Below, in pieces: positions 1,880-23,918 of a stretch of DNA of 27,060 bases. Each line of letters opens with the position of its first letter. Position 1 is the stretch's first letter. The translations under genes and the position numbers were made by a program. The notes under the pieces are model-generated. The model did no database searches, was not told where the DNA came from, and worked only from the letters and a program-made list of their open reading frames with translations. This DNA comes from a virus: the IMG/VR virus record IMGVR_UViG_3300008116_000224, positions 1 to 27,060 of that record. The stretch is one strand, 5' to 3'.

Positions 1880-1881
1880 CT

Positions 1882-5367: not shown

Positions 5368-5584
5368 AGTCGATGCTAACGGGGACAAGTATCGTGAGGT
5401 TTATTTACACACGGTGGTGGTGTTTACACCGCCCATGAAAAAGGATAAAAAGGTAACGATGTTTACCTACTTCGTACCAAAAGCATCGATGGCGGTAGAC
5501 GAGTTTTACAAAGCAAACCCAACCGTACCTATTATTAGGACATTTAGTTTGGGGACAAGACCCCATAGAATTTACGAGGACTAG
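5360..5584 (+). CDS. hypothetical protein, 74 aa
   Basis: ATG 5360 overlaps the 3' end of the nuclease gene by 8 nt; the stop is TAG 5582-5584. The product seems to be a small beta-rich protein (REVYLHTVVVFTPP, then VTMFTYFVPKASM) with a basic end. No cysteines, membrane segments or known motifs were seen. Two bases separate it from the HNH-like gene. Composition and overlap argue that it is real; the function is unknown. Confidence 0.6.
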   Translation: MYKVDANGDKYREVYLHTVVVFTPPMKKDKKVTMFTYFVPKASMAVDEFYKANPTVPIIRTFSLGTRPHRIYED

Positions 5585-5586
5585 CC

Positions 5587-5901: not shown

Positions 5902-5913
5902 ATCAACCCCTCT

Positions 5914-5928
5914 TGGGCGGGTAGCCCA
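5914..5928 (+). other. short hairpin between HNH-like and helicase genes
   Basis: TGGGC-GGGTA-GCCCA forms a perfect 5-bp stem with a 5-nt loop inside the 39-nt gap between TAA 5901 and ATG 5941. There is no following T-run, so it is not a convincing intrinsic terminator. It could be an mRNA processing or stability element, or chance. Confidence 0.25.
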
Positions 5929-5940
5929 TGCTGAGAGCCT

Positions 5941-7533: not shown

Positions 7534-7921
7534 CATTGGAGCCGATAAACTTGCCAAGGTCTACCTCAAGATGAGGGACAAACTAGAAGAGATGCGCCAT
7601 GAGTTTGAGACCCAAGAGGCCGAACTCAAAGGCAAGATGGAAGTCGTAGAGAAAGCCATGCTAGAAGTCTGCAAGGCCACAGGTGCGGACAGCATCAAGA
7701 CCCAGTTTGGCACGATCATCAAGTCGGTCAAAACCCGCTATTGGACTAACGATTGGGAGTCCATGCACCGCTTTGTTCGTGACCATCAAGTGCCTGACCT
7801 TCTTGAGCGGCGTATCCATCAAACCAACATGAAGACTTGGATTCAAGACAATCCCGGTCTCTTGCCCGAAGGACTCAATAACGAGTCCCGTTATTCTGCA
7901 ACTGTAAGGAGAAGCAAATGA
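7526..7921 (+). CDS. conserved-type phage protein with N-terminal coiled coil
   Basis: ATG 7526 is preferred because TGGAG at 7515-7519 is 6 nt upstream; ATG 7514 in the same frame has no good site. The product is 131 aa. Residues about 5-50 form a heptad-like charged helix (LAKVYLKMRDKLEEMRHEF). The C-terminal half has a distinctive aromatic segment, TRYWTNDWESMHRFV, followed by LLERRIHQTNMKTWIQDNPG. This type of protein recurs beside phage replication genes, as I recall it, but I know no proven function. It overlaps the helicase by 8 nt and the next gene by 4 nt. A Gam-like or accessory role is only a guess. Confidence 0.65.
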   Translation: MDNIGADKLAKVYLKMRDKLEEMRHEFETQEAELKGKMEVVEKAMLEVCKATGADSIKTQFGTIIKSVKTRYWTNDWESMHRFVRDHQVPDLLERRIHQTNMKTWIQDNPGLLPEGLNNESRYSATVRRSK

Positions 7922-8781
7922 GCGGAGAAATGACGCTTTTTAAAGGCAATTTGCCTGATTACCTGAAGAACCGTAGCCTCTCGGCTACCACCCGTGCGCT
8001 TATGGGTACGTCTCAAAACAAGCGTATCTCCATCCGTGGCGGTGTATTCCGCATGATGGTTGGTGGTCAAGAAACTGCGAAGTCTGACGAGCGCACCATG
8101 CAAGTTGTTATCGTGACTGCGGCGGAACACGTTAGTCGTACCTTCTACGCAGGGCAGTATGAGGAGGGAGAGCAAGTACCCCCGGCTTGTTGGTCTGCTG
8201 ATGGGGTGCGTCCTGATGCAAGCATCAAAGAACCACAGTGCCAAACCTGTGCCAACTGCCCACAAAACGTGGCTGGTTCCGGTCAAGGCGATTCCCGTGC
8301 TTGCCGTTTCTCTCGCCGTCTTGCTGTAGTTTTGGCTAACGATATGAATGGTGATGTGTTTCAGTTGGTGCTTCCGTCTAAATCAATCTTTGGCAAGGTT
8401 GAAAATAGCAAGATGCCTTTGGAAGCCTACGTTAAATACTTGGCGGCACATGGCGTCAACGTAGAAGATGTAGTTACGGAGATGCGTTTTGATACTGACA
8501 GCGCTACACCCAAACTTACGTTCTCACCTGTGCGTCCGTTGGAAGAGAACGAGCACAATATTTGCTCTTTGAAAGCACAAACCCAAGAGGCTAAAAACGC
8601 AATCACTATGAACGTCGCGCAAACCGATGGCGTAGTGGAGAAGCGTTTGTCTGTATCTCGCCCCGTTGCTAAGGCTGAACCCGCTGAAGCAGTCGAGGAA
8701 CCAACTAAACGACCTACTAAGAAGCAAGAAGAAGTTCCCGCCAAAGATGCGGCGGCTCTTGTGGACGAGTGGGACGACTAA
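7918..8781 (+). CDS. putative ssDNA-binding protein with Cys cluster and acidic tail
   Basis: The product is 287 aa. The start ATG 7918 has a strong AAGGAG at 7906-7911. The core (residues about 35-215) is beta-rich, as in an OB fold. It holds C91, C108, C111, C114 and C129 in PACWSADG, CQTCANCPQN and SRACRF, which could bind zinc. After about residue 250 comes a Pro/Ala/Glu/Lys linker and the acidic-aromatic end LVDEWDD. Short acidic tails with an aromatic residue are the protein-interaction tails of T7 gp2.5, gp32 and bacterial SSB. Context between helicase and primase supports an SSB role. Identity is inferred from architecture and not from a family match. Confidence 0.65.
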   Translation: MSGEMTLFKGNLPDYLKNRSLSATTRALMGTSQNKRISIRGGVFRMMVGGQETAKSDERTMQVVIVTAAEHVSRTFYAGQYEEGEQVPPACWSADGVRPDASIKEPQCQTCANCPQNVAGSGQGDSRACRFSRRLAVVLANDMNGDVFQLVLPSKSIFGKVENSKMPLEAYVKYLAAHGVNVEDVVTEMRFDTDSATPKLTFSPVRPLEENEHNICSLKAQTQEAKNAITMNVAQTDGVVEKRLSVSRPVAKAEPAEAVEEPTKRPTKKQEEVPAKDAAALVDEWDD

Positions 8782-8897
8782 GTTATGGGGGAAAGCAGGG
8801 GAATAACTGTTTCATGTTATGAGCGTGAGATGCGGTTGTTGGACACACCCTGCTAGTACCCCTCCCCCTTCCTACCCCTAGGAACGCCATCCATTAG
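8782..8897 (+). promoter_or_regulatory. structured, G/C-tract-rich non-coding element
   Basis: This is the longest gap in the left arm (116 bp). AGCAGGG (8794-8800) pairs perfectly with CCCTGCT (8848-8854). Inside that loop ATAAC (8803-8807) pairs with GTTAT (8816-8820). G-tracts at 8787-8791 and 8797-8801 face C-tracts CCCC, CCCCC and CCCC between 8859 and 8879. The minus strand thus has four runs of at least three G with loops of 1-8 nt, a possible G-quadruplex. No good sigma-70 promoter pair was found. It may be an operator for the adjacent HTH protein, an mRNA leader, or part of a replication origin. Confidence 0.4.
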
Positions 8898-9194
8898 GTG
8901 AGGCTCAACTCGCGTCGGGCGAGGTTAGTGGATCCCGACACCTTTTACTTACTGGGGATGACCGTGGTCGGCTACACACTTTCAATCGTAAAAAAGAACG
9001 CCGAAGCAGATCAATCTAAGATTGGTGTGCAGTTGGGCAGAATATGTATTGCGAAGAACGTGCCCGTGCAAACTGTGGCAAGTTACTTTGGTATGACAAG
9101 ATCAGGCGTGTATTACTGGTTCGCTGGAGAACGTGAGCCAAGGAAGGTTTCTGTAAAAGAAATCCAAGACTTCATAAAAAATTTAGCCGAGTAA
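8898..9194 (+). CDS. small helix-turn-helix protein
   Basis: The product is 98 aa from GTG 8898, the first possible codon after an in-frame TAG at 8895. GTG 8928 and ATG 8958 are later options, and no strong ribosome binding site favours any of them. The C-terminal half reads IGVQLGRICIAKNVPVQTVA followed by SYFGMTRSGVYYWFAGEREP, a clear Cro/XRE-type helix-turn-helix with the second helix at about residues 66-80. The N-terminal part (LVDPDTFYLLGMTVVGYTL) is hydrophobic and may be a dimerisation region. Its position directly behind the structured gap suggests autoregulation or origin binding. Confidence 0.75.
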   Translation: MRLNSRRARLVDPDTFYLLGMTVVGYTLSIVKKNAEADQSKIGVQLGRICIAKNVPVQTVASYFGMTRSGVYYWFAGEREPRKVSVKEIQDFIKNLAE

Positions 9195-9197
9195 ATA

Positions 9198-12041
9198 ATG
9201 CAAGAATTTTTAAGAGCCATTCTTGCCGGGGAAGGACACTATTGCATTACGGGACTGAAGAAGAACGATCAGCACCCAGCAATACAGTCGTTTTTTGACA
9301 AGTTAGAAGATACAGACCAAGCCATAAAGACTTTCCTTTCCGAGCGGAGAGATGTCTACTTTGCGCTGGCTACGTTCAAAGATCCTAATGCACCCAAGCC
9401 ACGCGCTCAGGAAAACGTAGTACGTATAAAGTCGTTATGGATTGATATTGATTGCGGTGAAGAAAAGGCCAAAGCCTTAAAAGGCTACCTCGACAAGGAG
9501 GCCGCTTTACTTGCGCTTGAAGAATTTTTAATCAAAACTAAGTTGCCAGAACCTGCCTTGGTTGATTCGGGCGGTGGGATACATGGGTACTGGGTGCTTG
9601 ATCGGGAGTTATCCCGCGAGGAGTGGCAACCCCTTGCCGATGGCCTAAAAGAGTTGTGCCTAAAAGAAGGTCTGTTAATTGACGCTGGATGCACAGCAGA
9701 TGCGGCACGGATTCTCAGGGTTCCTAACACCTACAATTTCAAGGAGGAGACACCAAGGCAGGTTCGGCTCCTATCGCCACCTGACACAACTTATAGCGTA
9801 GACATTATAAAAAGTGTTTTACCCGAAGTTGCACCTAAGCCTCTTGCAGGACTAAGTGGCAAAAAGAATCTCAGCCCTTTAACCAAAGCGCTAATGGGCA
9901 ATCAGGTATGTTACTTTAAAAATATTATGCTGCGTACCGCAAAAGGTACGGGGTGTCAGCAACTAGCCCACATCTATCAAAATCAACATGACTCTTCTCA
10001 GGTAGACTACAACATGTGGAGAGCGGCTTTGTCCGTTGCGGAGCACTGCGAAGATAGAGATCGTGCAATACATAAATTATCTGAAAAGCATCCAAACTAT
10101 GATCCTACTGAAACAGAAAACAAGGCATCTGATACTCGGGGTGAAGGCAAAGGCCCCTTCCTTTGTACGACGTTTTCGGAATATCGCCCCGGAGGGTGTG
10201 ATGGTTGTAAACATCTCGGGAAAATTAAAAGCCCTATCGTACTTGGTCGAGAGATTGCCGAATCCAAAGAAACCGAAGTAACCGTTAAGGAAGAAAGCGC
10301 TTCTGGTACGGTTAATGAAATAGTCTATGAGATCCCAGAGTTACCTGACCCTTACTTCCGTGGTCGCAAGGGTGGCATCTATAGGCGGGGCAAAGACGAT
10401 GACCAAGTGCTGGTCTATCCGCACGACCTCTACGTAGTACAAAGAATCTACGATCCCAACGAGGGCGAGAGTGCATGGATGCGACTGCACCTACCTAGGG
10501 ACGGTGTTAAAAACTTTACGGTGTCTATGGCTACCCTGTCGGGGCCTGACACTATGCGAACAGAACTCTCCAAGCGTGGTGTGATTTCCATGAATTGGAA
10601 AGAGATTCAAGCCTATTTAATTAGATCAGCGGGTGAGTTACAAGTGCAAAAACAAGCCGAAGTCGCCCACCATCAATTTGGTTGGACAAAACGTGGTTCC
10701 TTCGTAGTCGGGGATATGGAATTAGAAAACGGCAAAAGACGCTACGTTCCTCCTACCGTAACCACCTCAGACATGGTGGATTGGTATCACGAAAAAGGCA
10801 ACATCGAAGAGTGGAAAAAAGTTTTCAATGCCTACGCCCAAGAAGGTATGGAGGTACAGGGGTTTGCGGCACTAACTGGGTTTGGCGCCCCGCTGCTTAA
10901 GGTTGCAAGTAACCATAAAGGTATTTTGCTAAACCTGATTCACAAAGATTCCGGTTCTGGTAAGACAACCGTGCTTCGAGTGATTAACTCAATCTGGGGT
11001 CATCCTGAAGAACCATTACGCAGTGCTGATGACACGAAGGCATCTATGGTGCTACGCATGGGGGTACTAAATAACATCCCGCTGACTGTTGACGAGATGA
11101 CCAATACCAAACCGGAGGAGGTGTCTAACTTCTTATACGGCATTACCCAAGGACGAGGTCGTGACCGGATGAACTCTAACTCCAATACCCTGCGAGTCAA
11201 CACCACCACATGGCGCACAGTCGGGGTAGCCACAAGTAACTCATCATTCCATGACAAACTATATTTACTTAAGGACTTGCCCAAAGGGGAGATCTTTCGA
11301 TGCGTCGAGTTTCACATGGGTCTAAACAACATTATCTCCACTAAGGATGGCGTAACCCTGTTTGACGAAATACTCATGGAGAACTACGGACATGCTTGGT
11401 ATCCGTACATTACGGCGGTTCAGTCTAATAAGGCGGCGGCAATAGATTTAGTAAAAAAATACTTTGATGCTATTACTGATAAATTAAACCTATCTCCCTC
11501 CTATCGTTTCTATTCGGCACTTGGCGCAGTCAACCTAGCGGGTGGCAAGATTGCTCAAGACTTAGGGCTTATCGATTACCCCTTGCAACGGCTCTTTGAC
11601 TTCTATTGCGGTCAGATCAACGAAATCCGAGAGACCACCTTAAGCAAGGGTCAGGATTCAGAGGTCTTTATTTCGATGTTCATCCTCAAATACATGGCTC
11701 AAAATGCCCTCATTATTGATGATGCGTGTGACGCTCGAACCGGTATGGTCAGCAAACAGACACCGCGTGATGAGTTGTCTATCCGTATGGAGCCTGACAC
11801 TAAACGTATTTACATCGTGGCTTCTAAGTTCAAAGACGAGTGCGCTAAGAATCAGGTCACGTATAAAGAAGTTATAAAAGACTTGGAAACAAAGGGCTAT
11901 CTGATTGGTATCAAACCAAAAGGTATGTCCAAAGGGACGCTTATCGGCACACCTCCGGTAAGTGCAATAGTGTTAGATGCGGAGAAAATGGGCTTTGAGA
12001 TTCCTACAGACCCTTCGGAAGATGCGCTCAGACAGGATTGA
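9198..12041 (+). CDS. primase-helicase: AEP-like primase fused to a P-loop helicase (DUF927-like)
   Basis: The product is 947 aa. The N-terminal domain fits an archaeo-eukaryotic-type primase/primpol: LWIDIDCG (residues 80-87, D83 and D85 as the metal pair), SGGGIHGYWVLD (124-135, H129), then DAARILRVPNTYNFK (168-182). A putative zinc site follows: C323, C334, C337 and H339 in PGGCDGCKHLG. The C-terminal half holds Walker A KDSGSGKT (583-590) and Walker B LTVDEM (629-634), with ring-helicase-like spacing. It would both prime and unwind at the fork. No DnaB or T7 gp4-like gene is present in the window. It ends 20 nt inside the next gene. Confidence 0.8.
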   Translation: MQEFLRAILAGEGHYCITGLKKNDQHPAIQSFFDKLEDTDQAIKTFLSERRDVYFALATFKDPNAPKPRAQENVVRIKSLWIDIDCGEEKAKALKGYLDKEAALLALEEFLIKTKLPEPALVDSGGGIHGYWVLDRELSREEWQPLADGLKELCLKEGLLIDAGCTADAARILRVPNTYNFKEETPRQVRLLSPPDTTYSVDIIKSVLPEVAPKPLAGLSGKKNLSPLTKALMGNQVCYFKNIMLRTAKGTGCQQLAHIYQNQHDSSQVDYNMWRAALSVAEHCEDRDRAIHKLSEKHPNYDPTETENKASDTRGEGKGPFLCTTFSEYRPGGCDGCKHLGKIKSPIVLGREIAESKETEVTVKEESASGTVNEIVYEIPELPDPYFRGRKGGIYRRGKDDDQVLVYPHDLYVVQRIYDPNEGESAWMRLHLPRDGVKNFTVSMATLSGPDTMRTELSKRGVISMNWKEIQAYLIRSAGELQVQKQAEVAHHQFGWTKRGSFVVGDMELENGKRRYVPPTVTTSDMVDWYHEKGNIEEWKKVFNAYAQEGMEVQGFAALTGFGAPLLKVASNHKGILLNLIHKDSGSGKTTVLRVINSIWGHPEEPLRSADDTKASMVLRMGVLNNIPLTVDEMTNTKPEEVSNFLYGITQGRGRDRMNSNSNTLRVNTTTWRTVGVATSNSSFHDKLYLLKDLPKGEIFRCVEFHMGLNNIISTKDGVTLFDEILMENYGHAWYPYITAVQSNKAAAIDLVKKYFDAITDKLNLSPSYRFYSALGAVNLAGGKIAQDLGLIDYPLQRLFDFYCGQINEIRETTLSKGQDSEVFISMFILKYMAQNALIIDDACDARTGMVSKQTPRDELSIRMEPDTKRIYIVASKFKDECAKNQVTYKEVIKDLETKGYLIGIKPKGMSKGTLIGTPPVSAIVLDAEKMGFEIPTDPSEDALRQD

Positions 12042-12216
12042 ATTTGTCATACCGTGGGATAACTTCACACTAGGTACGTCTATATTTATACCTAGTCTAA
12101 ATCCGGGGGACACTCTAAGATCTTTTCGTAAAGAGGCAGAGCAACGAGCGGTTACTTATGTCTACAGAATTGTTGTGGAAAACGGAGTGCAAGGCTTGCG
12201 GGTGTGGAGGGCGTAG
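12022..12216 (+). CDS. small beta-rich hypothetical protein, last gene of the rightward block
   Basis: The product is 64 aa from ATG 12022, with GGAAG directly upstream; an ATG at 11977 in the same frame would overlap the primase gene much more. The protein begins IEFVIPWDNFTLGTSIFIPS and ends VENGVQGLRVWR, an alternating beta pattern with a basic middle helix (FRKEAEQRAV). The stop is TAG 12214-12216, followed by tandem terminators. No family was recognised. The strong terminators behind it support its being the last gene of the transcript. Confidence 0.65.
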   Translation: MRSDRIEFVIPWDNFTLGTSIFIPSLNPGDTLRSFRKEAEQRAVTYVYRIVVENGVQGLRVWRA

Positions 12217-12238
12217 CCCACAATGGAGAGGCTTCTCC

Positions 12239-12261
12239 AGCCCGTACTCCTCCGGGCTTTT
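12239..12261 (+). terminator. upstream hairpin of tandem intrinsic terminators
   Basis: AGCCCG (12239-12244) pairs with CGGGCT (12253-12258) around an 8-nt loop, followed by a short TTTT (12258-12261). A further small hairpin, GGAGA/TCTCC, lies just before it. It is weaker than the next hairpin but correctly oriented for rightward transcription. Confidence 0.6.
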
Positions 12262-12294
12262 GCCCCGGCTAATCTTCTTGCCGGGGCTTTTTTT
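12262..12294 (+). terminator. strong intrinsic terminator ending the rightward block
   Basis: GCCCCGGC (12262-12269) pairs perfectly with GCCGGGGC (12280-12287) around a 10-nt loop, followed immediately by seven T (12288-12294). This is a textbook rho-independent terminator for + strand transcripts. It overlaps the last codon of the convergent - strand gene (TAA at 12293-12295). Read leftward, the hairpin is followed by AAAA and not by T, so it should not work efficiently for the opposing operon. Confidence 0.95.
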
Positions 12295-15200
12295 AGTCTA
12301 AGTCACCAAGTAGGTCTTGCTCAATTAACAAGTCCTCAATCCGCTGATAGGGAGCAAATTTAGACCGTAACCCCTTGGCTACAAAAATACCTTTCTGGGT
12401 TTCTTCCGAGATAGATTCCCGCTTGTCTAGGGAGCGTTTAATAGTATTAGGGGTAATTGCTACACCTTTGTAAGGGTTGCGTTTGTTGAACTCCCTAATC
12501 TCTTCCATAATTTCTGAGGCTTCTTCACGGTCACGCTCCCGCACGGCTTTGGCGTACTGATCCATTAAACTCATGCGGCGCTGCAATATCTCCTGCTCCA
12601 TATCCTTGATTCGGTTATTAATCTTGTACTGGGTGGAGAGGCGCTGCGGCGTTAGCCCAAGTGCCTGAAACATAATTTCACGAGTTGTTATGTCCTCAAT
12701 GATTGGATCACCCCGAGAAGTTAATACTCCTTCGGTAGCAAACCGATAGGCTTTCATGGGGCTTCTAATAAAAGCAGGGGCGGCGGTTTCTATACCTCCA
12801 AATACATCGCCTTGCGCCATTTTTTCCCCACCTCTAGCGACCCCCACTGCGATACCAAAGCCAGCACCAGCGGCTTCTCCAAGGGCGTTGTAGAGAGTTT
12901 CCTGAGAAGTTTTGCCTTGTTTGATATCTCGTAGCCCCAGCACACGACCAATAAATGGCAGTTTTTCCGTGCCTCCAAGGAGAAACGATGATTCATAGGA
13001 CACCCGAGAACCAATATCTGCACCGGATACACCTAACGAACCACGGAACATCATGTTGCCAACCGTGTTGCCAAAGTTATCAATCAAAAATTCGTGCAAG
13101 TTCACATCAAAACTATACGGGTCGTCCTCATCTCCAAACAATTTATTCATTACGTCACGGATGATGTAGTAGAAAGGCATCCCCACCACACCAGACATAA
13201 GCGCAGTCATACCCATCATGCCGGTAAACTGCCGCCGTGCAATACGCCTAATGTTCTTTTGTTGCTCAGGAGTCAGGTTTGGATCTAGGTTGCCAAACAT
13301 CTCTTGGAACATCCTGATATAAATAGTCGCCATGTGAGCCGGAAACTTCTTAAACATCAAGATAACCCGCAGGGCTGGGTTCATAAATATCCGACCCGCT
13401 TGATCAGCGGCATATGCACCTTGAGACTTCTCTACGGCTTGCTCGGCAAACTTAATGGCTTCCTCGTGCGACATTGGCTTATCTTTGCCAATCATAGGTT
13501 TTGAACGGGCAAGACGATAAGCAGTTAAGGCTGTGGATTCACGGTTAACTAACTCAGCCTTTTGAAAAGCAAATCCTGCCCATCTTTGGAAAAGATACAT
13601 GCCATGAGAGAACGACCCGGGGTAAGCACCGCCTATATTGGCAATACTGCCGATGTCATAAATCTGCATCCCAGAGCGCAACGCACCCAATTGGTCTAGT
13701 TCCACCATCATGCGGACTTCATCAACCGTAAGGGCTGTGCCATTTTTGACTGCCTCTGGCCCAAACAAAGTGTTTAGTTGCCCTTGATCAAGAACTTTTA
13801 ATTGGTCTAGTCGCTCACTAGCCGTACCTTCAGTTAAGTAACTTTTACCAAATTTAGTTAAAGTTTTGTACGCACGGGTAAGTTCAGTTAGGTTACTTAC
13901 TTGACCCTCAAATCGAGCACTTAACCAAGGAAGTGCTACCCCCGGAACCTGTAACAAGTTAACCAAAGCCGAGGCTGGGTTTAAACCTAGATACCATAAA
14001 AAGCCCGCTTGGTTAATACTATTGGCAAGTTGATCGCCTAACGAAGGGGCCTGCTGCACTTTCATAACTCGCCGGGTAAGTTCTGAGGCCAACTCTATGG
14101 CCTCATCCTGCTCATCCCGACTACGGAAACGCTGTTTGTTTTCTTCGCCTTTTTCTTCAACGATGTTGCTTAGATTAGTCAAATCACGGCTAATTGCACC
14201 GCTGTACTCTAGTTGCGAAATTTGATTGGAATAACGGTCAGCCATCGCGCTATAGACCTTGAGCATATCCCGCATAAAGCCTTCAGTACCTTTACGTTTG
14301 GCTACTAGGTCACGACGAATCGAAGTTTCTGGGAACAATAAGAGAGACGCCTGATGAACTTTCTCCCGCAGACTGTCAATCATCTCCATTTCTTGACTAT
14401 AAGTGGCACTTCCCGGTGTAGATACGGGCTTAATTGCTGCAAGCGCAGGCTTAATCTTGTCAAAGAAAGCATTGACCGGAGCGCGACCCCCGGGGGTATA
14501 GAGGAGTTGTTCGATGTTGGATTTCTTAAATGCCTTAACAAAATCTCTACCAAGCAACCGCTCTTGCTCTTGAGCAAATCGTCTGGCCTCAGCCCGGCTT
14601 TCAAAAAAGCGAGATTCTCCAACGGTTAGCAGTGGCTCACCTGTATCCTCATCAGTTCCTGTAACTTCATAGGTGTTGACTACATAACGACCAGAGCGCA
14701 TTAACTTGAGATAAGCGTCATTATTTGCCTTAGCAAATTCTGCTTTGGTTTTCTCAATAGTCTCAAACAACTCAGGTGAGACTTGCGAATCCCTAAGATT
14801 ACCCTCACCAGCACGATCTTTTAGAGACTGAATGATGCCTCGTAACAATTGTCTGCGAAAGTATTGGTAGGAATCAAAAAGACTCTTTAGGTTTGAAGAC
14901 GGCAAAATCTCTGATGGTACAGGTTTAGCACCGTTCTGGGCTTTCCAATCCCGCTTAAAGATATCGTCAGCCTTCTTGAGTTCTGCATTTAATAAGTCCC
15001 AAGCCTCAGTCTTAGACATCTTGACATCATCAATCTCAACTTTGTCCAGATTAAGTTTCCGAAGATCCTCGCTTAAGTCTGTGTTATCAGCGGCATAACG
15101 ACTTTTAGAGTTAAACGGGTTAATCTCAGCAATCGTAGCGATGGCACCTATTTCATCCAGTTTAGCAGCGGCTTCTTTACTTACAGCGTTCATACGCACC

Positions 15201-15508
15201 ATCGGGCCAATTACGGTCTCGGCGTAGCGTTTCATTTTTTCGTTGTAAGCACGCTGTCTTTTTAGGTAGTCATTTATTTTGGCGGCTTGAGGTACACCTA
15301 GTTGCTCTAATCTTTCAACGATGTGCCACGTAAACTTAAGGGCTTGTAGGCTTTCATTCTTTATTTTGTTATATGTGTCTGAAGACATATCCAGAACAGT
15401 CTGGATTGGGCCAGCAAGAAACTCTCCCACCGCTTGACGCGGACGGGATACGCTAGGAGTTGAGCCACTTAGCCCACAGTAGGATTTAGGTATCTTAGCC
15501 ACAAACAT
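12293..15508 (-). CDS. large internal virion / ejection protein, PLxRFG-like
   Basis: The product is 1071 aa and the last gene of the leftward operon; its ATG 15508 overlaps the upstream gene by 14 nt. Residues 1-480 are long charged helices (for example residues 85-120 and 460-485). Residues 487-530 (APSLGDQLANSINQAGFLWY, then a hydrophobic stretch to PWLSA) look membrane-active. The segment 706-735, RIFMNPALRVILMFKKFPAH, resembles the PLxRFG-type segment of phage large polyvalent proteins, and 761-783 is another hydrophobic helix. Such proteins sit inside podovirus capsids and are ejected with DNA. No lysozyme or protease motif was seen. Function is inferred from size, character and position. 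Confidence 0.65.
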   Translation of the reverse strand: MFVAKIPKSYCGLSGSTPSVSRPRQAVGEFLAGPIQTVLDMSSDTYNKIKNESLQALKFTWHIVERLEQLGVPQAAKINDYLKRQRAYNEKMKRYAETVIGPMVRMNAVSKEAAAKLDEIGAIATIAEINPFNSKSRYAADNTDLSEDLRKLNLDKVEIDDVKMSKTEAWDLLNAELKKADDIFKRDWKAQNGAKPVPSEILPSSNLKSLFDSYQYFRRQLLRGIIQSLKDRAGEGNLRDSQVSPELFETIEKTKAEFAKANNDAYLKLMRSGRYVVNTYEVTGTDEDTGEPLLTVGESRFFESRAEARRFAQEQERLLGRDFVKAFKKSNIEQLLYTPGGRAPVNAFFDKIKPALAAIKPVSTPGSATYSQEMEMIDSLREKVHQASLLLFPETSIRRDLVAKRKGTEGFMRDMLKVYSAMADRYSNQISQLEYSGAISRDLTNLSNIVEEKGEENKQRFRSRDEQDEAIELASELTRRVMKVQQAPSLGDQLANSINQAGFLWYLGLNPASALVNLLQVPGVALPWLSARFEGQVSNLTELTRAYKTLTKFGKSYLTEGTASERLDQLKVLDQGQLNTLFGPEAVKNGTALTVDEVRMMVELDQLGALRSGMQIYDIGSIANIGGAYPGSFSHGMYLFQRWAGFAFQKAELVNRESTALTAYRLARSKPMIGKDKPMSHEEAIKFAEQAVEKSQGAYAADQAGRIFMNPALRVILMFKKFPAHMATIYIRMFQEMFGNLDPNLTPEQQKNIRRIARRQFTGMMGMTALMSGVVGMPFYYIIRDVMNKLFGDEDDPYSFDVNLHEFLIDNFGNTVGNMMFRGSLGVSGADIGSRVSYESSFLLGGTEKLPFIGRVLGLRDIKQGKTSQETLYNALGEAAGAGFGIAVGVARGGEKMAQGDVFGGIETAAPAFIRSPMKAYRFATEGVLTSRGDPIIEDITTREIMFQALGLTPQRLSTQYKINNRIKDMEQEILQRRMSLMDQYAKAVRERDREEASEIMEEIREFNKRNPYKGVAITPNTIKRSLDKRESISEETQKGIFVAKGLRSKFAPYQRIEDLLIEQDLLGDLD

Positions 15509-17993
15509 CCTTTGTAACTTTAGCCGCTACTTTATTACCAGTACCAGCGTTTCCTGTTGCATCTTTAGCCGCCTTTATCTCAGCGGGATTGCTGGGCGTA
15601 GCCCGATCTCGTAGTTCATCAAGCATACTAAATATATTAGTAGCCCTCTGAGTTGCATTATCTTGTTCAGTTTGCGATAACTTAGGATTGACCGAGTCCC
15701 TAGTAGCCTGAGCATAAGTCTGGGCTAACTGTGAAAGTTCTTTTGCTATGGTTGTATCTTTGGACTCTTCGGCCAGATTAACAAACTCATTCAGATCTTC
15801 AGCCAACCCACTTTCTGGGTCTACCCCAGCCAGCATCTCCCGCATCTGCGTTACGTATTTTTCATATGGCTGACCTGTAGGCTTTTTGCGAGTGCGAGGC
15901 GCTTTAGGCGGAGGGGCTGATGTGGGTGCGGGTGCGGCAGTAACTTCTGGCGCAACTTCAGGGGCAACTTCAGGGGCAACTTCAGGGGCAACTTCAAGGG
16001 CAACTTCAGGGGCGACTTCAGGGGCGACTTCAGGGGCGACTTCTGTCGTAGTCTCTTGGTCTTGTAAGTAAGTTGTTTCTGCTTGAGCCAAGGCTTCGGC
16101 TAGAGGCATCGTAACTTCCAGATCTTCTGCCATCTGTGTAATTTCTTTTACAGCATCTGGATTCTGTGGATAGCGCCCAGCGAGGTCTTTGTAGAGTTGA
16201 TCCCTAACCTCTTTAGCCTGACGAGCGGCAATATCTTCCGGTGTTTCTGTAGGCGCAGTTGGAGCAGTGGGTTTAGCAGGGATACCAAGTTTGGTATTAA
16301 TGTACTCCTGTGCCTCTGCCTCGGTCTTAAACTCTTTCTTGGTGTCGTACTTGTTAGTCTTTTTGTTAAATACGGTAAACACCCCGGCCTTAACCGGATC
16401 AGGCTGGATCTCTAAGTCCGCAGCCACAAGCACTTCTGGGCCTACCTTACCTTTTTTCTCTTGCTCTAGTTTCCCATCAATATATTTTTGAGCGTTCTCA
16501 GCACTAGCAAAGTTTTGGTTAGCAACATTCTTACCAGTGACAGGGTTAAATACTATGAACTTTTTCGGGTCTGTTGGAGATTGCTGCACCACAAAATTAC
16601 TTGGTGAGTTAACAGCCTGTCTTGGATTAAAAAATGCTTCATAAGTTTTTACAGCAGCAGTTAGCGTTTCATAGTCTTTGATCTTTTGGGCTAACTCGTC
16701 TGCCTCCATCCGTTTGGAGTCACGCTTAATTTCTTCGCCTAACTTAAACCGGTCATTACGAAACATACTAAGTAGTGCCGTACCAATAGTTTCATTACCA
16801 GTGTCGGCCTCAAGAACGTCTTTCATTGGGATATTGACACGTTGCTTGCCACCAATATTGATGGCTTTGGCTTCTGGGTTAATCCCTAGACGCTCTAACA
16901 AGTCAGGGGTGTATGGCAAAAAGTTGCCTTGATCATCCGTCAAATCAAATGCAGGAGCATCAACCTGTATTTGTTTACTGTAGTTATCCCACTCTTGACC
17001 TAGATTTATCTGTTTACCCTGCACCGCATCAGCGACTTGCTGAACGTAGTCTTTGCTATAAACACCTTTACGGATGTTCCCAGCATAAGTAGAGACGCCA
17101 CCTATCGGGCCACCAAGTATTCCACCGCCTACCGCAGACTCAAAATATTCTTCTAAGGCATCGTCACTAGCCAAGTCCAAACCAGCACCATAACGCTCCA
17201 GCGCTTGTTGCGCGACCTCTTGGGCGGCTTCAAATGCGGCACCTGTGGCAACACCGGCGGCAATACTCTTTTTACCAAGTAGTTTCTCAGCGGCTTTTAC
17301 TGGGTCTTTAGCGGCGGTTTCAGCAACTTCTTTAGCAATCTTCTCTGCGTTTTCTCGACCAGCCAAACCAATCATTTCACCTAACGGACGGAAAAGACGG
17401 AATCCAGCCACATCTAATCCAGCCTGCGCTGCGGAAGTCATGGCTATTTTAGTGGCCTCGGGGGGTTCTGCCGTTTTGCCTTCTTTGACTCTTCCTTCTT
17501 GTACGGCGGCTTGCCGGGTAGTGGTGTCGGTTAAGTATTGAGCACCAGCGGCAGTTAAAAAAGCACCGGTGGCAGCAAATGGTTTGAGGGGTAAAGGAGC
17601 AACCCTAGAGGCGGCAACGGAAGCAGCGACAGGAGCGGCAAGAAAGCCAGCCGCAGTACCGGCCTGTTCTTTAACAAACCTACCAAGACCACCAAGACCT
17701 TCAATTTCTTTTAGCCGTTGAAAATCGTATTCAGATTCACCAGCCTCTGCCGCAGCCTTACGGCGTTCAGCAGTGGGACTAAATAGATATCTGACGGACT
17801 CGGGTAAACCCCCAAGGGTTGAAATGCCCTCGCCAAACCCACCTGTAAACCCAGCCTCTTCTTTTGGGGGTGGTGGCAATTCTTCGACAGGAAACAACTT
17901 GTCTGCCAAGGCGGCATACATATCAAAATCAGATGTTCCTTTGGGGAACACCAGCGGTTCTTTCAGCGCTGGGTGTCTAAGTACCCGAGCCAT
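15495..17993 (-). CDS. large virion/ejection protein with VAPE tandem repeats
   Basis: The product is 832 aa. The N-terminus (MARVLRHPALKEPLVFPKGT) precedes a Pro/Glu linker. Ala/Gly-rich hydrophobic helices around residues 112-155 and 240-310 (for example GTAAGFLAAPVAASVAASRV) suggest membrane insertion. Two related blocks follow near residues 465-500 and 535-570 (KFIVFNPVTGKN and VFTVFNKKTNKY, each followed by a Phe-x-x-Ala/Glu-Glu-Ala-Gln helix), an internal domain duplication. Eight VAPE-type repeats occupy residues about 652-683, then a Pro-rich basic linker. It starts 2 nt after the 469-aa gene. A role with its neighbours in genome ejection is likely; no enzyme motif was recognised. Confidence 0.65.
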   Translation of the reverse strand: MARVLRHPALKEPLVFPKGTSDFDMYAALADKLFPVEELPPPPKEEAGFTGGFGEGISTLGGLPESVRYLFSPTAERRKAAAEAGESEYDFQRLKEIEGLGGLGRFVKEQAGTAAGFLAAPVAASVAASRVAPLPLKPFAATGAFLTAAGAQYLTDTTTRQAAVQEGRVKEGKTAEPPEATKIAMTSAAQAGLDVAGFRLFRPLGEMIGLAGRENAEKIAKEVAETAAKDPVKAAEKLLGKKSIAAGVATGAAFEAAQEVAQQALERYGAGLDLASDDALEEYFESAVGGGILGGPIGGVSTYAGNIRKGVYSKDYVQQVADAVQGKQINLGQEWDNYSKQIQVDAPAFDLTDDQGNFLPYTPDLLERLGINPEAKAINIGGKQRVNIPMKDVLEADTGNETIGTALLSMFRNDRFKLGEEIKRDSKRMEADELAQKIKDYETLTAAVKTYEAFFNPRQAVNSPSNFVVQQSPTDPKKFIVFNPVTGKNVANQNFASAENAQKYIDGKLEQEKKGKVGPEVLVAADLEIQPDPVKAGVFTVFNKKTNKYDTKKEFKTEAEAQEYINTKLGIPAKPTAPTAPTETPEDIAARQAKEVRDQLYKDLAGRYPQNPDAVKEITQMAEDLEVTMPLAEALAQAETTYLQDQETTTEVAPEVAPEVAPEVALEVAPEVAPEVAPEVAPEVTAAPAPTSAPPPKAPRTRKKPTGQPYEKYVTQMREMLAGVDPESGLAEDLNEFVNLAEESKDTTIAKELSQLAQTYAQATRDSVNPKLSQTEQDNATQRATNIFSMLDELRDRATPSNPAEIKAAKDATGNAGTGNKVAAKVTKDVCG
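15945..16040 (-). repeat. 12-bp tandem repeat, eight copies, encoding VAPE
   Basis: On the + strand the unit is TTCAGGGGCRAC. Three copies at 16005-16040 have GAC, one at 15993-16004 is TTCAAGGGCAAC (giving VALE), three at 15957-15992 have AAC, and the last at 15945-15956 is the diverged TTCTGGCGCAAC. The frame is preserved. The array encodes a Pro/Glu-rich, probably extended linker in the 832-aa virion protein. Confidence 0.95.
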
Positions 17994-17995
17994 TT

Positions 17996-19405
17996 TTAGT
18001 CTGGGGTATCTTCTAAGGTTGCGCCCGTGCCACGAGCGTATGCCATGCCTACGCCACCTTTAAGAATATTAATAAGTCTTTGCGTTTCGGCAATCGCTTG
18101 CTTATCTTTCTTGGGATCAAGCATCCTTAACTGAGTTTGTAGTTCATTTATGGCTTGTGTTGCCCTAGTCACATCTCCAAGTTTAAACCCAGCACCACCT
18201 GAAGCCTTGGCTTTTGCGGCAAGACCTAATGCGTCGTAGTAAGACTGCTTCATGCCAAGTTCTTGCAACTTAATGTCAGCACTAAATATGTCTTTCTTAG
18301 CCTGATTTGCCATTGTGGTAGCGTCTTTAACATTGCCACGCAGGTATTGTTCTTCTGCCAAAGCCATGCGCTCTTCACCTTGAGCCAACTTGTCCATAGC
18401 CCCAGTCTTTTCACGGCGCAGTTCAGCCATAGACTCACCGCCAGCACCCACCGCAGCCGCTAAGGCTTCTAATCCACTCTTGCGCTTTCCACCCACAGCC
18501 TTAGCCGCTCTTAAGAAAGGCTCAGACTCACCGGCTTTTGCGTACATGGCTTCAACATCACCACGGCGTTTTGCCTGTAATTCTTTTGTTTTAGCCCCAA
18601 ATTCACCAAGACCTTGTTCTCTTTCTAACTCTTTAATCTGTCTCAAAATCGCTCTTGGGTCATCTTCTAAACCTAAACCACGGCGTCGGGCAGCGGCAAC
18701 TATGTCCTTTCCGGCGATTCCTTGACCAGCGCTTGCAACATCACTACCACCTCGACCTTCTTGAATATCTTGAACTTCATATTGACGCTGTAGTTCTTCT
18801 GGGGTAAATGCCCCTTCCTCATCTTCACCCATCATGCCAAGACCAAATGGGACACCAGAGGCAACACCCGTAAGCGCTGTGGTTTTCTTAGGGTTCCTTC
18901 TTATTACTTCACGAAGTCCAGTAAGGCCACGCATAGCCAGAGGGCCAACGGCGCGAGCACCCTGAATTGCAGGGCCAAGAAAAACACCAGCGGCAAATCC
19001 CGGTACCTCACCACCACGGTCAAAAGCAACCATCCCACCACCAGCCATCTCAGCGGTCTCACCGTAAGGCTCACCAAACTCAAGCCCACCCTGCTCGGCT
19101 TGGGCTACAAGATTGTTTAATCCCATACTCTCGTCTGCGGCTAACTTATCAGCAAACTGTTGTTGTGCAAGTGCAGCAAGTTCACGATCTGCAACCGTAC
19201 CGCTACCACCCGCTTCCTGTGCTTGTTTTGCCGCCTGTGCCATTAACCGCTCTCGATTGCGCTTAGATACTTCAGCAAGAGCCAAAGAACCATATTCTCT
19301 GGTTGCGGTTAGTGAAGCCAACTGTTGCTCATCCATAAATGGAATACGGCGAGACATCGCCAAAAAGTCAACACTCGGATTTACTGCTTGACTAGCCTGT
19401 GCCAT
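17996..19405 (-). CDS. internal virion / tail-associated protein, 469 aa
   Basis: The N-terminal 100 residues are helical and Gln/Ala-rich (ERLMAQAAKQAQEAGGSGT). Residues 119-138, EMAGGGMVAFDRGGEVPGFA, carry a Gly-Gly motif also seen in the 693-aa virion protein. A short hydrophobic segment (residues 139-160) is followed by KKTTALTGVASGVPFGLGMM, possibly membrane-interacting. From about residue 200 to the end the protein is long charged coiled coil. It lies 10 nt after the Gln-rich gene and 2 nt before the 832-aa gene. Position and composition suggest an ejected core protein, as with T7 gp14-gp16, but sequence similarity to those is not evident. Confidence 0.6.
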   Translation of the reverse strand: MAQASQAVNPSVDFLAMSRRIPFMDEQQLASLTATREYGSLALAEVSKRNRERLMAQAAKQAQEAGGSGTVADRELAALAQQQFADKLAADESMGLNNLVAQAEQGGLEFGEPYGETAEMAGGGMVAFDRGGEVPGFAAGVFLGPAIQGARAVGPLAMRGLTGLREVIRRNPKKTTALTGVASGVPFGLGMMGEDEEGAFTPEELQRQYEVQDIQEGRGGSDVASAGQGIAGKDIVAAARRRGLGLEDDPRAILRQIKELEREQGLGEFGAKTKELQAKRRGDVEAMYAKAGESEPFLRAAKAVGGKRKSGLEALAAAVGAGGESMAELRREKTGAMDKLAQGEERMALAEEQYLRGNVKDATTMANQAKKDIFSADIKLQELGMKQSYYDALGLAAKAKASGGAGFKLGDVTRATQAINELQTQLRMLDPKKDKQAIAETQRLINILKGGVGMAYARGTGATLEDTPD

Positions 19406-19415
19406 GTCTTACCCC

Positions 19416-20228
19416 TTAACCAAGTCCTTTGTACAAACCAAGCCCACCTAGACCTAACTGCATTAAGTTCTGAGTTGTCGAGGGAGGAGCCTCATAAACT
19501 GCACGCCCGCCAGTCCCAGCAAGATTGCCAGAGCCACGTAAGATGTCAGACATAAAGCCAAGTTGGGCATACGGATAACGCTGTTGCTGTAAGAAGTCTT
19601 GATATGCCAAGTCAAGTTTGGCTTGGCTTTCTGCACGACCTAAGCCACCAAAGGCTTCCTGTGCTTTAGCCAAATCAAGACCCGCTTGTTGCTGACCAAT
19701 ACCTAATTGACCCAATGTAGCACCGGCTTGAGTTGCGGCTTGAGCACCTTGGAGACCAAGATTTCCACCAAATTGACGTGATTGCTCTGCCATACGTTGT
19801 GCTTCAAGAAGCGCTTGCTGATTAGCACGTTGTGACTCAAGATTTTGACCTGCGCCAAATTGTTGCACACCAAGAAGAGCCTGTAAGTTAGCCAGTCCAG
19901 TCTGAGTGCCTAATTGTTGAGTCTGCATACCAGCCTGTAGACCACGGCCTTGTTCTTGTTCAAACGCCCTTTGGGCGGCATCGTATGCGGATTGACTGCC
20001 GGTGGCCTGAATCCTAGCCATTTGATCTTGTAGGTTACGCTCACGTTCAGTACCAGCAAGAAGTTGACGTGCGCCTCCATAAGTACCTTGACGAGCGGCG
20101 GCTAAGTTTTGAGCCAATTGCCCTTTTTGGGCATCACGGATGGCTTCTTGTTTTTGAACGTCTACTACTTGTTGCATATACGGAGACATAAACCGGGCGG
20201 CAGTGCCTTGCCCAGTAAACGATTCCAT
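19416..20228 (-). CDS. Gln/Ala-rich virion protein, part downstream of an in-frame amber codon
   Basis: The 270 aa from ATG 20228 are rich in Gln, Ala, Gly and Leu and long-helical. SPYMQQVVDVQKQEAIRDAQ (residues 15-34) begins a heptad-like rod, and the end is Gly/Leu-rich (LMQLGLGGLGLYKGLG). The same frame is open upstream for another 49 codons, back to TAG 20379-20381, and then continues as the 20379-20705 gene. AGGG 6 nt before ATG 20228 could allow separate initiation. The intact form would be about 429 aa. Genes of this look sit among tail or ejection proteins in environmental podoviruses. Confidence 0.6.
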   Translation of the reverse strand: MESFTGQGTAARFMSPYMQQVVDVQKQEAIRDAQKGQLAQNLAAARQGTYGGARQLLAGTERERNLQDQMARIQATGSQSAYDAAQRAFEQEQGRGLQAGMQTQQLGTQTGLANLQALLGVQQFGAGQNLESQRANQQALLEAQRMAEQSRQFGGNLGLQGAQAATQAGATLGQLGIGQQQAGLDLAKAQEAFGGLGRAESQAKLDLAYQDFLQQQRYPYAQLGFMSDILRGSGNLAGTGGRAVYEAPPSTTQNLMQLGLGGLGLYKGLG

Positions 20229-20378
20229 ACCTGTCCCTACACCACTGGGCCCTTGTGCTTGAAACTGTTGTAATCCCTGTGCTTGAGTAAGTGGAGCAGC
20301 AAAAACACCGGGGGCATACTGTCCCGCTTGAAGTGCCTGTGCGCCACCAGCGGCGGCTAACCCCGTACCAGTGGCAAA

Positions 20379-20705
20379 CTAACCGGGTAATTGCATGCCA
20401 GCCACGTCTTGTCTTGCGGCTAATTGCTCTTGTGTAGACCCTGCAAGTCGTTCACCACCATAAGCCTGATAGGGCGAATCCGTTAATGCTTCGGCTTTAC
20501 CTAACGCACGCTCTGCATATGGCTTGGCGTATTCAGGAATCGTGGTTTGAGAAACTGAAGAAGGGGCAGGTGCTCCACCTCCACCACCACCACCATCATA
20601 TAGGCAAATCTTGCCTATTGCGTTTGGTTTAAACGCATCAGGATGCCCCGGTATCCAACCAGATTCTAGTAACGCATAATTATTTCGGCTCATCTTTTGC
20701 CTCAT
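20379..20705 (-). CDS. N-terminal part of the Gln/Ala-rich virion protein, ended by an amber codon
   Basis: The 108 aa end at TAG 20379-20381. ATG 20705 overlaps the upstream stop as ATGA; ATG 20693 is better served by GAGG at 20701-20704 and may be the true start. After a short N-terminus comes a run of seven Gly encoded by 20574-20594, then IPEYAKPYAERALGKAEALT and YQAYGGERLAGSTQEQLAA. The frame stays open past the TAG for 49 codons of the same Ala/Gln/Gly composition and joins the 270-aa product. It is therefore best seen as one split gene. TAG differs from CAG (Gln) by one transition, and Gln would suit the surroundings. Confidence 0.6.
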   Translation of the reverse strand: MRQKMSRNNYALLESGWIPGHPDAFKPNAIGKICLYDGGGGGGGAPAPSSVSQTTIPEYAKPYAERALGKAEALTDSPYQAYGGERLAGSTQEQLAARQDVAGMQLPG

Positions 20706-21127
20706 CCAAAGAACTTTTGATACATCACACTTCTTGTCTCGTAGCCTCGTTTTACAACGTGCTTGTGCCAGCCCGGCCTACCTATTAACTCGATACCAGC
20801 ACAACCACAATCTTTTGCATACCGCTCTAAGGTGTCATATACCTTATCTTCTACAAACTTCATGTGATTCTTCTCACCCGAGCAATACTGAATTACTAAC
20901 ATCTTGCACTGCGGATACTGCTTAATCTCTGTAATTATTTGACCGTAGATTTCTTTGTCATCTAATACTACCCATAACTGCATCTGACCGGTAAATAAAA
21001 ACTTTAAGATGTCATCTGTTGTCGATCTACCTCTTGTCCAACTCTCAGAAACTTCTAAATACTTAATGACTTTTGGGATGGCTGTCGATAACACCCCATA
21101 AGGCACCAAAGAAAAATCTAAGTTCAT
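20702..21127 (-). CDS. GNAT-fold-like phage protein
   Basis: The product is 141 aa. The arrangement fits a small N-acetyltransferase fold: an N-terminal helix pair, the strand MQLWVVLDDKEIYGQIITEI, a central strand CKMLVIQYCSG, a helix VEDKVYDTLERYAKDCGC, the strand AGIELIGRPGWHKHVVKRGY and a C-terminal strand. The GRPGW...RGY segment resembles the end of GNAT domains. The CoA-loop motif (Q/RxxGxG/A) is not clear, so it may be a structural relative without activity. Small GNAT-like proteins occur in podovirus structural blocks. It overlaps both neighbours by 4 nt. Confidence 0.5.
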   Translation of the reverse strand: MNLDFSLVPYGVLSTAIPKVIKYLEVSESWTRGRSTTDDILKFLFTGQMQLWVVLDDKEIYGQIITEIKQYPQCKMLVIQYCSGEKNHMKFVEDKVYDTLERYAKDCGCAGIELIGRPGWHKHVVKRGYETRSVMYQKFFG

Positions 21128-23205
21128 GCGGGCATATATCTTTCCGCCCTTACTTCAGGGGCTTGACGTTTTTTACCTGTCCGTGCTTTACGGATGCGGT
21201 TCATCATGGAATGTAATTTAGCAGCCCCTGCTTTACTAGACCCATTACCAAGATGTGATACCACATCAGCCGGGATGACAAACTCACCATCAGCCAGCCG
21301 TGCGGGTTGCGTATCGTTAATAGTGGCAGGGATAGAGTCGCTCATACCGTCACCCTTGCCCATCAAAAACCGAGGTTTATTAGGACTACCGCCAGCAGCC
21401 AAGGCTGTTAGCCCACCACCATAATATTCGTCTTGCCCATACTCATCGTCAAATGCCCGAATGTCGCCGTTTTTAACTCCTTCTTCAATGCTTCCACCCA
21501 TAGCATATGTACCGTAAGCAGGTTCAGTACCCGCCTTGTAAACGCCAACAGGAGTAAAACGAGAATCAAAATATGTTTGTTCAGCAGTAGATTCTCCACG
21601 CTCACCCGTGCGATACGGCACATTTTTCCGGCCCGGATCATATTTAAATGGACGGACAAACTGCTCTTGGATGGGTAGGCCGGTAGGCTCATTCATACCA
21701 GCAATTAACGGAGCGGCGGCTGCACCGCCGTATTTGGCTAACCCCATCGGGCCACCAACAGAACTCATAAAAGCACCCCGAGCACCCTCAGTGCCTTGGA
21801 CTACGTTGGAAAGACCTGTCCCCATTTGTTTAACTGTTGAGCCAAAACCACCCGGAGAAACAACCGTACTTGATGGGGTAGCAATAACATTCATAGCGGC
21901 ATCTGCTTGTTGTTGAGCCGCTAGAGTTTGTAATCCTTGAGGCGTGTAGGCCGCTGACGAGGTAAGAGGTGTTGTTGGGTACATACCAAACGCATCAGCC
22001 GCAGTCCCCGATAGTTCAATAGCCTGTGGAGCCGCCTGTGAAAGTGTTTGAGATGCAAGTTCAGGCGCTCCGGCTAGACCCGCTGAGGTTCCTGTTAAAG
22101 CCGGGGAAGCCGTGGCTCCAGCCGCAGAAAGCCCAGCCCCTATACCAGCCCCACCAAACGCCCCTAGACCAGCCATAAGACCTTTTGTAAGGCTCCCTGT
22201 AGCCAGACCGTAGCCACCACCTACCATTAATGCCGCCATAGGAGCACCAACCCCTGTAGCAGCCAAGGCCGCGCCAGCGACCATTGGGAGGATTGAACTT
22301 AAGAACCCTGCTTCAACGAGACCAGTTCTAGGGTTAATACTAAGAGAGCCACCATGCCGCATGGCTAGGTACTGCAATCCTTGGACTTCCCGAGGGGTCA
22401 TGTGGACAAGCATCTTGTCTTGACCACGGCCTTGAGATTGAACCTGATTGGCTAACGAAGTAATACCGCCTTGTTCATAATTCATAACCCGACCCCCCAT
22501 GCGCCATCCACCATCGCTATCGCTATCGCTATCACTATCACTATCGCTATCATCACCGGGAGCATCATTTGCATCAACCCCTACGGTAGATTCAGTGCTG
22601 TAGCCTCCAATACCCGCCCCAGAATCACCCATAGCGCTACCGCTAGTATCGGTACTTGTAGAAGGGGCGCCAGTAGTAGAAGTGGCGGCATCAACGGCGT
22701 CAACACCTACAGCCTCAGCAATGCCCATAGCAACATCTACAGGTGAAACTTGTGTCTCTTCCTCTGTTTGCTGTTGATTCATTTGTGTCAAAGCAATGGT
22801 TGGATCCGCAGGTACTGGGTCTATTGGAGTAACTTGTTGCGTGTTTGTCCGGCCTAAAGCGGTAGAAAGACTAGGATCAATACCTTGGGCAACAGTTTGT
22901 GCTTGCGCCACGCCAACGGGATCCATCATGTTTTGCATCATACCTAAAGACGTTAACCCAAAAGCCTGTTGCCCCATCTGAGTAACTGCCGCCATCGTTG
23001 GGTTTTCAGCGTAGTAAGCCGCCTGTTCGGTAGGTGTCATTTGACTAAACGGGCTTGGGTCTGCTTGATACCCACCATCCCCAGCGTAATCGTATTTCTG
23101 AGCCGCCCCCATTTGATTGGCCTGTTGCTCTGGGGTAAGCAAGGTATACGACTGAGTAGCCGGATTATATGAATATCGGGGTGGGAGGGAGGCGATACCG
23201 TTCAT
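21124..23205 (-). CDS. Gly/Ala-rich virion protein, 693 aa
   Basis: The N-terminal 210 residues are Gln/Pro/Thr-rich and low in complexity. An Asp-Ser run occupies residues 218-231. A Gly-Gly motif follows at 236-251 (MGGRVMNYEQGGITSLA). Residues about 299-363 are a long hydrophobic Gly/Ala region (GFLSSILPMVAGAALAATGV), likely membrane-active. Near the C-terminus come a second Gly-Gly motif (YYGGGLTALAAGG) and a SDSIPA...LADGEFVIPADVV...LGNGS block, a pattern common in aquatic phage virion proteins, ending in a basic tail. An AGGA site precedes ATG 23205. It is probably a tail-tip or ejection component; no enzyme motif was seen. Confidence 0.65.
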   Translation of the reverse strand: MNGIASLPPRYSYNPATQSYTLLTPEQQANQMGAAQKYDYAGDGGYQADPSPFSQMTPTEQAAYYAENPTMAAVTQMGQQAFGLTSLGMMQNMMDPVGVAQAQTVAQGIDPSLSTALGRTNTQQVTPIDPVPADPTIALTQMNQQQTEEETQVSPVDVAMGIAEAVGVDAVDAATSTTGAPSTSTDTSGSAMGDSGAGIGGYSTESTVGVDANDAPGDDSDSDSDSDSDSDGGWRMGGRVMNYEQGGITSLANQVQSQGRGQDKMLVHMTPREVQGLQYLAMRHGGSLSINPRTGLVEAGFLSSILPMVAGAALAATGVGAPMAALMVGGGYGLATGSLTKGLMAGLGAFGGAGIGAGLSAAGATASPALTGTSAGLAGAPELASQTLSQAAPQAIELSGTAADAFGMYPTTPLTSSAAYTPQGLQTLAAQQQADAAMNVIATPSSTVVSPGGFGSTVKQMGTGLSNVVQGTEGARGAFMSSVGGPMGLAKYGGAAAAPLIAGMNEPTGLPIQEQFVRPFKYDPGRKNVPYRTGERGESTAEQTYFDSRFTPVGVYKAGTEPAYGTYAMGGSIEEGVKNGDIRAFDDEYGQDEYYGGGLTALAAGGSPNKPRFLMGKGDGMSDSIPATINDTQPARLADGEFVIPADVVSHLGNGSSKAGAAKLHSMMNRIRKARTGKKRQAPEVRAERYMPA
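22513..22551 (-). repeat. 6-bp microsatellite encoding an Asp-Ser run
   Basis: On the + strand ATCGCT occurs three times (22513-22530), ATCACT twice (22531-22542), then ATCGCT and ATC. Read on the - strand this gives alternating Asp and Ser codons, residues about 218-231 of the 693-aa virion protein. It forms an acidic flexible linker. Confidence 0.9.
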
Positions 23206-23237: not shown

Positions 23238-23918
23238 CTATGGGGTTGAGGCCGAAACGTAGGTTATAGAGCCAATGACCGATGGGATGGCTGGGCGGGC
23301 AAAGGGTGAGACTTGGGTTGGGCTGTGGAATAGATAAACACCATTAGTAGGGGTGGTGGGATTACCAGCCAGATCTGTTGCCCAATACAACTCAATTTCG
23401 TCCCCAATATCTATTTCAAAAGTAATTTCAGAATAGCCAACAACATACCCCTCTTCACCCGGACTAGCGCTTTTACGGGCAGGAACGGTAAAAATTGTGG
23501 CTGAATTAGGTACATCTACGTTATTAACCTTGAGCCAGACGGTAGCGTAGTGAACAGCGTTTGCCGTATTTATAAACTGAATACTATAAGTAATTTTATA
23601 AACTCCAGCATAATCAGATACAGCAGATCCGGGCGCATTTAGTGTCCATTCATAACCCGAATCAAGGGTATTAAAACTAATCTGAGTAGCAGTATTATTT
23701 CCTGTAGCCACCTGATCTGTAGAATCCGATGCGGCTATGTGTGGGAATATAATTCCAACTCCTTGACCATTTAGTGAGGAATTAACGGAATTTAAATACC
23801 CATCCAACAAATTAAAGTACAAACGTAAAGTACGAATAAAATCCGTGTGATATCTTTGATCATACTCAACTGGAGGTACCGGTAACGCAGGAGCAATAAA
23901 ACTTTTAACTGTGCTCAT
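23238..23918 (-). CDS. virion surface protein with C1q/TNF-like jelly-roll domain
   Basis: The product is 226 aa. Residues 1-55 form a Pro-rich start and an amphipathic helix (YHTDFIRTLRLYFNLLDGYL), a likely attachment or trimerisation stem. From about residue 75 there is a beta sandwich: ATQISFNTLDSG, YAGVYKITYSIQFINTAN (residues 103-120), HYATVWLKVNNVDVPNS, then GYSEITFEIDIGDEIELYW. The GxYxxxYSxQF and VWLKxNxxxVPxS pattern matches C1q-like jelly rolls used in phage fibres and decorations. Its start overlaps the upstream gene by 4 nt; the stop is TAG 23238-23240. It is probably exposed and may contact the host. Confidence 0.7.
   Translation of the reverse strand: MSTVKSFIAPALPVPPVEYDQRYHTDFIRTLRLYFNLLDGYLNSVNSSLNGQGVGIIFPHIAASDSTDQVATGNNTATQISFNTLDSGYEWTLNAPGSAVSDYAGVYKITYSIQFINTANAVHYATVWLKVNNVDVPNSATIFTVPARKSASPGEEGYVVGYSEITFEIDIGDEIELYWATDLAGNPTTPTNGVYLFHSPTQVSPFARPAIPSVIGSITYVSASTP

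Follow-up and report, generated by a model that had tools for sequence, protein, structure and literature searches.

We report an in-frame TAG in a late-operon gene of the window (the whole stretch of DNA that was analysed, a 27,060-base linear virus record), and believe it highly probable that this stop arose either by a nonsense substitution private to this contig or through an error in the consensus, the two being taken jointly. A single C-to-T change, in the contig of the window only, would turn a conserved glutamine codon into TAG. We give about an even chance to a recent real allele, from which mainly a 108-residue fragment would be made, with most of the protein lost. As a tentative alternative, to which we attach less weight, the consensus may be in error, or the metagenomic assembly may have picked up a chimeric or minority allele. 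The coordinates are collected in the table.

Table. Features of the split gene and its surroundings (positions in the window)
Feature	Position	Strand	Remark
Late-operon gene	19416..20705	-	430 codons, counting the internal TAG and the final TAA
In-frame TAG, codon 109 of 430	20379..20381	-	Stop in the row of the window only, among the matches listed
Codons 1-108, the product if the TAG terminates	20382..20705	-	Translation
Codons 110-429, the portion lost if the TAG terminates	19419..20378	-	Comparison with G001
First in-frame ATG past the TAG, with a weak AGGG upstream	20226..20228	-	Met in no other aligned row
Segment diverged or absent in the nearest relative G001, with the TAG at its 5' edge	19726..20400	-	Mosaic allele

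Translation of 20705-19416 (- strand) yields 108 residues up to the TAG at 20381-20379, after which 320 codons are open before the closing TAA; this agrees with the preliminary description of an amber codon interrupting an otherwise open gene. The open stretch after the TAG that it had pointed out is also there, but its length was given as 49 codons and our recount gives 50 between the TAG and the ATG at 20228. ATG, GTG and TTG were looked for in these 50 codons and none was found; no listed ORF of at least 60 aa overlaps 20229-20378 on either strand, so that the gap indeed appears to hold no gene of its own, as had been claimed. The start codon of the split gene shares bases with the stop of the 141-aa gene upstream (ATGA), and the downstream 469-aa gene begins 10 bases after it; hence we consider the gene to be part of a tight late operon.

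The frame was treated there as a single gene, and alignment of homologues across the junction bears this out. When the whole frame was used in tblastn with X at the stop, the closer homologues aligned across the TAG as one continuous ORF, and in closer relatives the gene is a single ORF of about 300-530 codons. Since the ORF of these homologues continues across the position, the openness past the TAG is not due to chance.

The TAG column was surveyed with a family HMM built from an alignment of 21 homologues among the 65 loci then in the set, and run over 152 related loci and the window; two of the scans contributing loci were represented by their best matches, the second viral scan by the best 80 of 506 relatives. 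The 217 domain rows included 79 with a gap at the column and 138 with a residue, of which 118 were distinct. Distinctness was judged on 120 bases around the codon, and near-identical strains therefore remain as separate rows. Among the matches listed, 86 of these 118 rows carry glutamine (52 CAG, 34 CAA), 31 carry other sense codons, and one, the window, carries a stop. Restriction to rows with at least 30 matched residues on each side leaves a similar picture (81 Gln, 27 other sense codons and 1 TAG; n=109, again among the matches listed). The TAG of the window is also the only in-frame stop lying more than 13 residues inside a matched stretch in the HMM rows, among the matches listed. When viral_contigs was scanned twice for the exact sequence surrounding the TAG, any base being allowed at the first codon position, no record matched; a lineage sharing the TAG could exist beyond this sample, given that the second scan covered the best 80 of 506 relatives.

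The nearest relative, G001, is a virus record of 62,171 bases with about 97% identity over about 70% of the window. Identity at the DNA level is 96.6% over 890-15339, 96.8% over 14434-19743 and 91.2% over 20356-22608; the remainder of the window is 67-79% identical or unmatched, except for the first 625 bases at 97.6%. The gene in G001 is an intact frame of 362 codons with CAG at the codon matching the TAG, and the statement that one transition separates CAG from TAG thus holds for codon 109. The stop is absent from G001 and from the other listed homologues. Both a fresh nonsense mutation and an assembly error, two of the options offered in the preliminary description, gain from the predominance of glutamine among the listed rows and from the CAG of G001. 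Twenty-five of the 26 genes of the window match stretches of G001, and a stop is inside none of these matches. A search of eight related records with the C-terminal part, for a second copy that might make up for a broken one, found G001 matching in one frame only.

The differences from G001 also bear on the age of the stop. There are 5 nonsynonymous and 22 synonymous differences in codons 1-108, and 5 nonsynonymous and 20 synonymous ones in codons 319-430; the last figures indicate that the 3' end has not decayed. As the codons at the 3' end are as constrained as those upstream of the TAG, the stop would be either recent or harmless. Codons 110-318 differ by 39 nonsynonymous and 48 synonymous changes, which suggests a weaker constraint, in a segment that is mosaic, hard to align and poorly aligned. 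Over about 20400-19726 the gene of the window is diverged from, or longer than, that of G001, and the flanks are about 97% identical; the long form resembles two other loci, L001 and L002, where the DNA identity in 75-base steps is mostly 55-80%. With near-identical flanks and a diverged or longer middle, the gene is a mosaic, and the TAG lies where the deviating segment begins on the 5' side; recombination or chimeric assembly could be the source of this middle part.

A second in-frame stop was found in the family, a TAA at 6489-6491 of locus L056, in a frame listed with 1133 aa and otherwise free of stops. It is 13 residues from the start of the match, yet the gene is already open for 540 codons ahead of it. 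Its column is mostly glutamine (98 of 130 distinct rows among the matches listed) and differs from that of the window TAG; a stop at a different glutamine column fits the expectation from random mutation or error. With the exception of this TAA, the remaining in-frame stops in the HMM rows, among the matches listed, are ordinary frame starts and ends.

As a control for the stop rate, the ten late genes of the window were compared with the 152 loci, and a stop was counted if it was at least 20 residues inside a match. Six such stops were obtained, the 693-aa gene and the split-gene family accounting for three each (L068, L069, L089 and L056, L059, L152, respectively). Review by eye kept only that of L056: those of L068, L069, L089 and L059 were set aside because the match crosses a gene junction, and that of L152 because the match begins in a frame with further stops. 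A stop in L022 and L023, 11 columns into their matches to the 469-aa gene and so under the 20-residue limit, was taken as a gene end. The coverage was uneven, as a gene contributed anywhere between 95 and 48,271 distinct codon positions, most of them in the split, 693-aa and 635-aa genes, and the control accordingly does not show the family to be unusually prone to stops.

Several alternatives leave the TAG as a functional element. Programmed or leaky readthrough of UAG, which would yield two virion proteins, one of 108 aa and one of 429 aa, would account for the 320 codons that are open downstream and constrained at the end of the frame, and glutamine tRNAs are able to misread UAG. We nevertheless consider it very unlikely. 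The position of the stop is not conserved, with 1 of 118 distinct rows carrying it among the matches listed and G001 lacking it, and pseudoknot-free RNA folding next to and across the TAG gives no more stability than is seen in dinucleotide shuffles (z-scores of +0.94 for the 120 nt downstream, +0.55 for the 120 nt upstream and +0.28 for the spanning stretch). The base directly after the TAG is U, and U after a stop is a strong-termination context in E. coli. The programmed readthrough proposed in the preliminary description is thus disfavoured by the rows, by G001 and by the folds. A variant in which a leaky UAG was gained in this lineage, the 108-residue short form being made with a little of the 429-residue long form and the dose of the long protein being lowered, seems to us distinctly unlikely; under it the TAA of L056 would be a parallel case. 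Expression as two separate proteins, with a restart at the ATG at 20228 or at codon 173, we regard as extremely improbable in spite of the AGGG that lies upstream of this ATG. The methionine, Met160, occurs in 1 of 68 distinct rows among the matches listed, namely that of the window itself, in an insert column that is loosely aligned, and the segment with this ATG is absent in G001. Codons 110-159 would be left out of both products, although homologues align with the first of them. Nor did we find homologues as two separate proteins meeting at the TAG: among the matches listed, none of the 117 remaining rows that have a residue at this column shows a stop there. With the methionine not conserved, we do not retain the earlier suggestion of split expression from this site.

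The remaining alternative is that TAG is decoded as glutamine late in infection, through genetic code 15 or through a suppressor tRNA of the phage or host. The homologous residue is mostly glutamine, and code 15 assigns this amino acid to TAG (PMC9523058, PMC11210395); a TAG at a mostly-glutamine position of a late gene is what the window has in common with code-15 phages. It differs from them in having one such TAG, a normal table-11 density and TAG terminators shared with relatives, and in that a tRNA was not found. According to PMC11210395, the median coding capacity falls to 67-69% when code-15 phages are annotated under table 11, and 375 of 715 predicted code-15 phages carry an amber suppressor tRNA while the rest do without one. 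In the window, the 27 table-11 ORFs cover 96.6% of the sequence and one late gene is split; the other nine complete late genes have none with more than 40 open in-frame codons after the stop.

Code-15 phages are expected to be without TAG as a terminator. Here TAG ends called ORFs at 5582-5584, 12214-12216 and 23238-23240, and at 118-120 it closes a frame cut by the left end of the contig. The preliminary description took TAG to be the normal terminator of at least four genes; this stands for 118, 5582 and 12214, which are also TAG in G001, while for 23238 termination is plausible and is not confirmed by the nearest relative, because the gene in G001 continues for 27 codons to a TAA. The 27 codons by which the window gene is shorter would favour decoding, but reading through TAG 23238 would add just 11 codons. 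Among 45 homologous rows reaching this gene end (repeat contigs kept), 33 have their stop no more than 8 codons away; the other 12, the nine closest among them, go on for 24-28 codons, and in the closest relatives other than G001 the longer frame ends in TAG or TAA. As an observation on its own, this 226-aa late gene, which ends with the TAG at 23238-23240 (- strand), is 27-28 codons longer in its closest relatives, and the tail length varies in the family.

A tRNA was found neither in the window nor in three loci of relatives, and none was found in 12 of 12 related records with the Rfam tRNA model, which was positive in 14 of 14 control genomes. Late suppression, another of the earlier proposals, is not supported by these searches. 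Since the window is probably a fragment, a suppressor tRNA could still lie elsewhere in the genome. The view that wholesale recoding is unlikely agrees with our results: the table-11 coverage and the three TAG terminators shared with G001 speak against code 15, the tRNA searches gave it no support, and we rate late decoding of TAG as glutamine, by either route, very unlikely.

We therefore return to the private substitution or consensus error. The gene is rich in glutamine (64 CAA or CAG codons of 429), and for this reason it offers a large target for C-to-T nonsense changes. We infer that the change ran from CAG to TAG, is recent and truncates the product. The closest known cases are lone in-frame stops in otherwise constrained prokaryotic genes. 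Belinky et al. 2021 (PMC7918605) describe such stops as widespread in bacterial genes under constraint, many of them being short-lived; the stops are also argued there to reflect readthrough. That pattern would suit a transient allele as well as basal readthrough. What the cases share is a constrained frame, open apart from one codon that is CAG in some sequences and TAG in others; in the worked example of PMC7918605 eight sequences carry TAG and ten carry CAG, whereas here TAG is confined to one contig. The case calls for caution: for a lone stop in a glutamine-rich gene, seen in one metagenomic contig, the cheapest account is one C-to-T change. If the TAG were truly decoded, it would mean readthrough in a phage without signs of recoding, which would be relevant to the translation of phage late genes.

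As to the identity of the gene, its position in the operon makes it likely that the split gene encodes a protein of the ejection type or one internal to the virion. The operon has holin and endolysin matches. Its 635-aa protein is 38.6% identical to the "stabilization protein" of Phage DSL-LC04 and matches a PHROG of virion structural proteins; an 832-aa protein has a weaker virion structural match. For either half of the split gene no family was found in PHROGs or Pfam, and the literature search gave no publication on the gene family among the matches listed. Searches of named phages, by blastn for distant matches to the region and by tblastn with the 270-aa part as query, gave no match, but the family HMM found one homologue in each of two. 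These are WJZ48114.1 of Phage DSL-LC04 (E 1.1e-26, 294 aa) and gp83 of Pelagibacter phage HTVC027P (E 2.4e-16, 286 aa), both matches with a high composition bias. Each is a single intact CDS annotated as hypothetical protein and shorter than the window gene, and each of the two genomes carries a homologue of the 635-aa protein. In DSL-LC04, WJZ48114.1 comes after the "tail tape measure protein" and two genes before the "DNA transfer protein". An AlphaFold model of an intact homologue (L001 first, 21-row alignment) has a mean pLDDT of 52 and a pTM of 0.21.

Other features of the window can be mentioned in passing. The 1071-aa gene at 12293-15508 (- strand) is the last of the late operon, and its residues 375-1049 match the C-terminal end of a DarB-like antirestriction PHROG. 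At 157-930 (+ strand), a 148-aa ORF ends in TGA and the frame is open for 108 codons more, covering the 102-aa ORF at 622-930. At 8898-12041 (+ strand), a 98-aa ORF and a 947-aa primase/helicase-like ORF are in a common frame, separated by one TAA and 3 bases; G001 matches both with close spacing. A 79-aa ORF at 11977-12216 (+ strand), whose frame differs from that of the 947-aa gene, overlaps the last part of this gene, and it is 98.7% identical in G001 over 78 residues.
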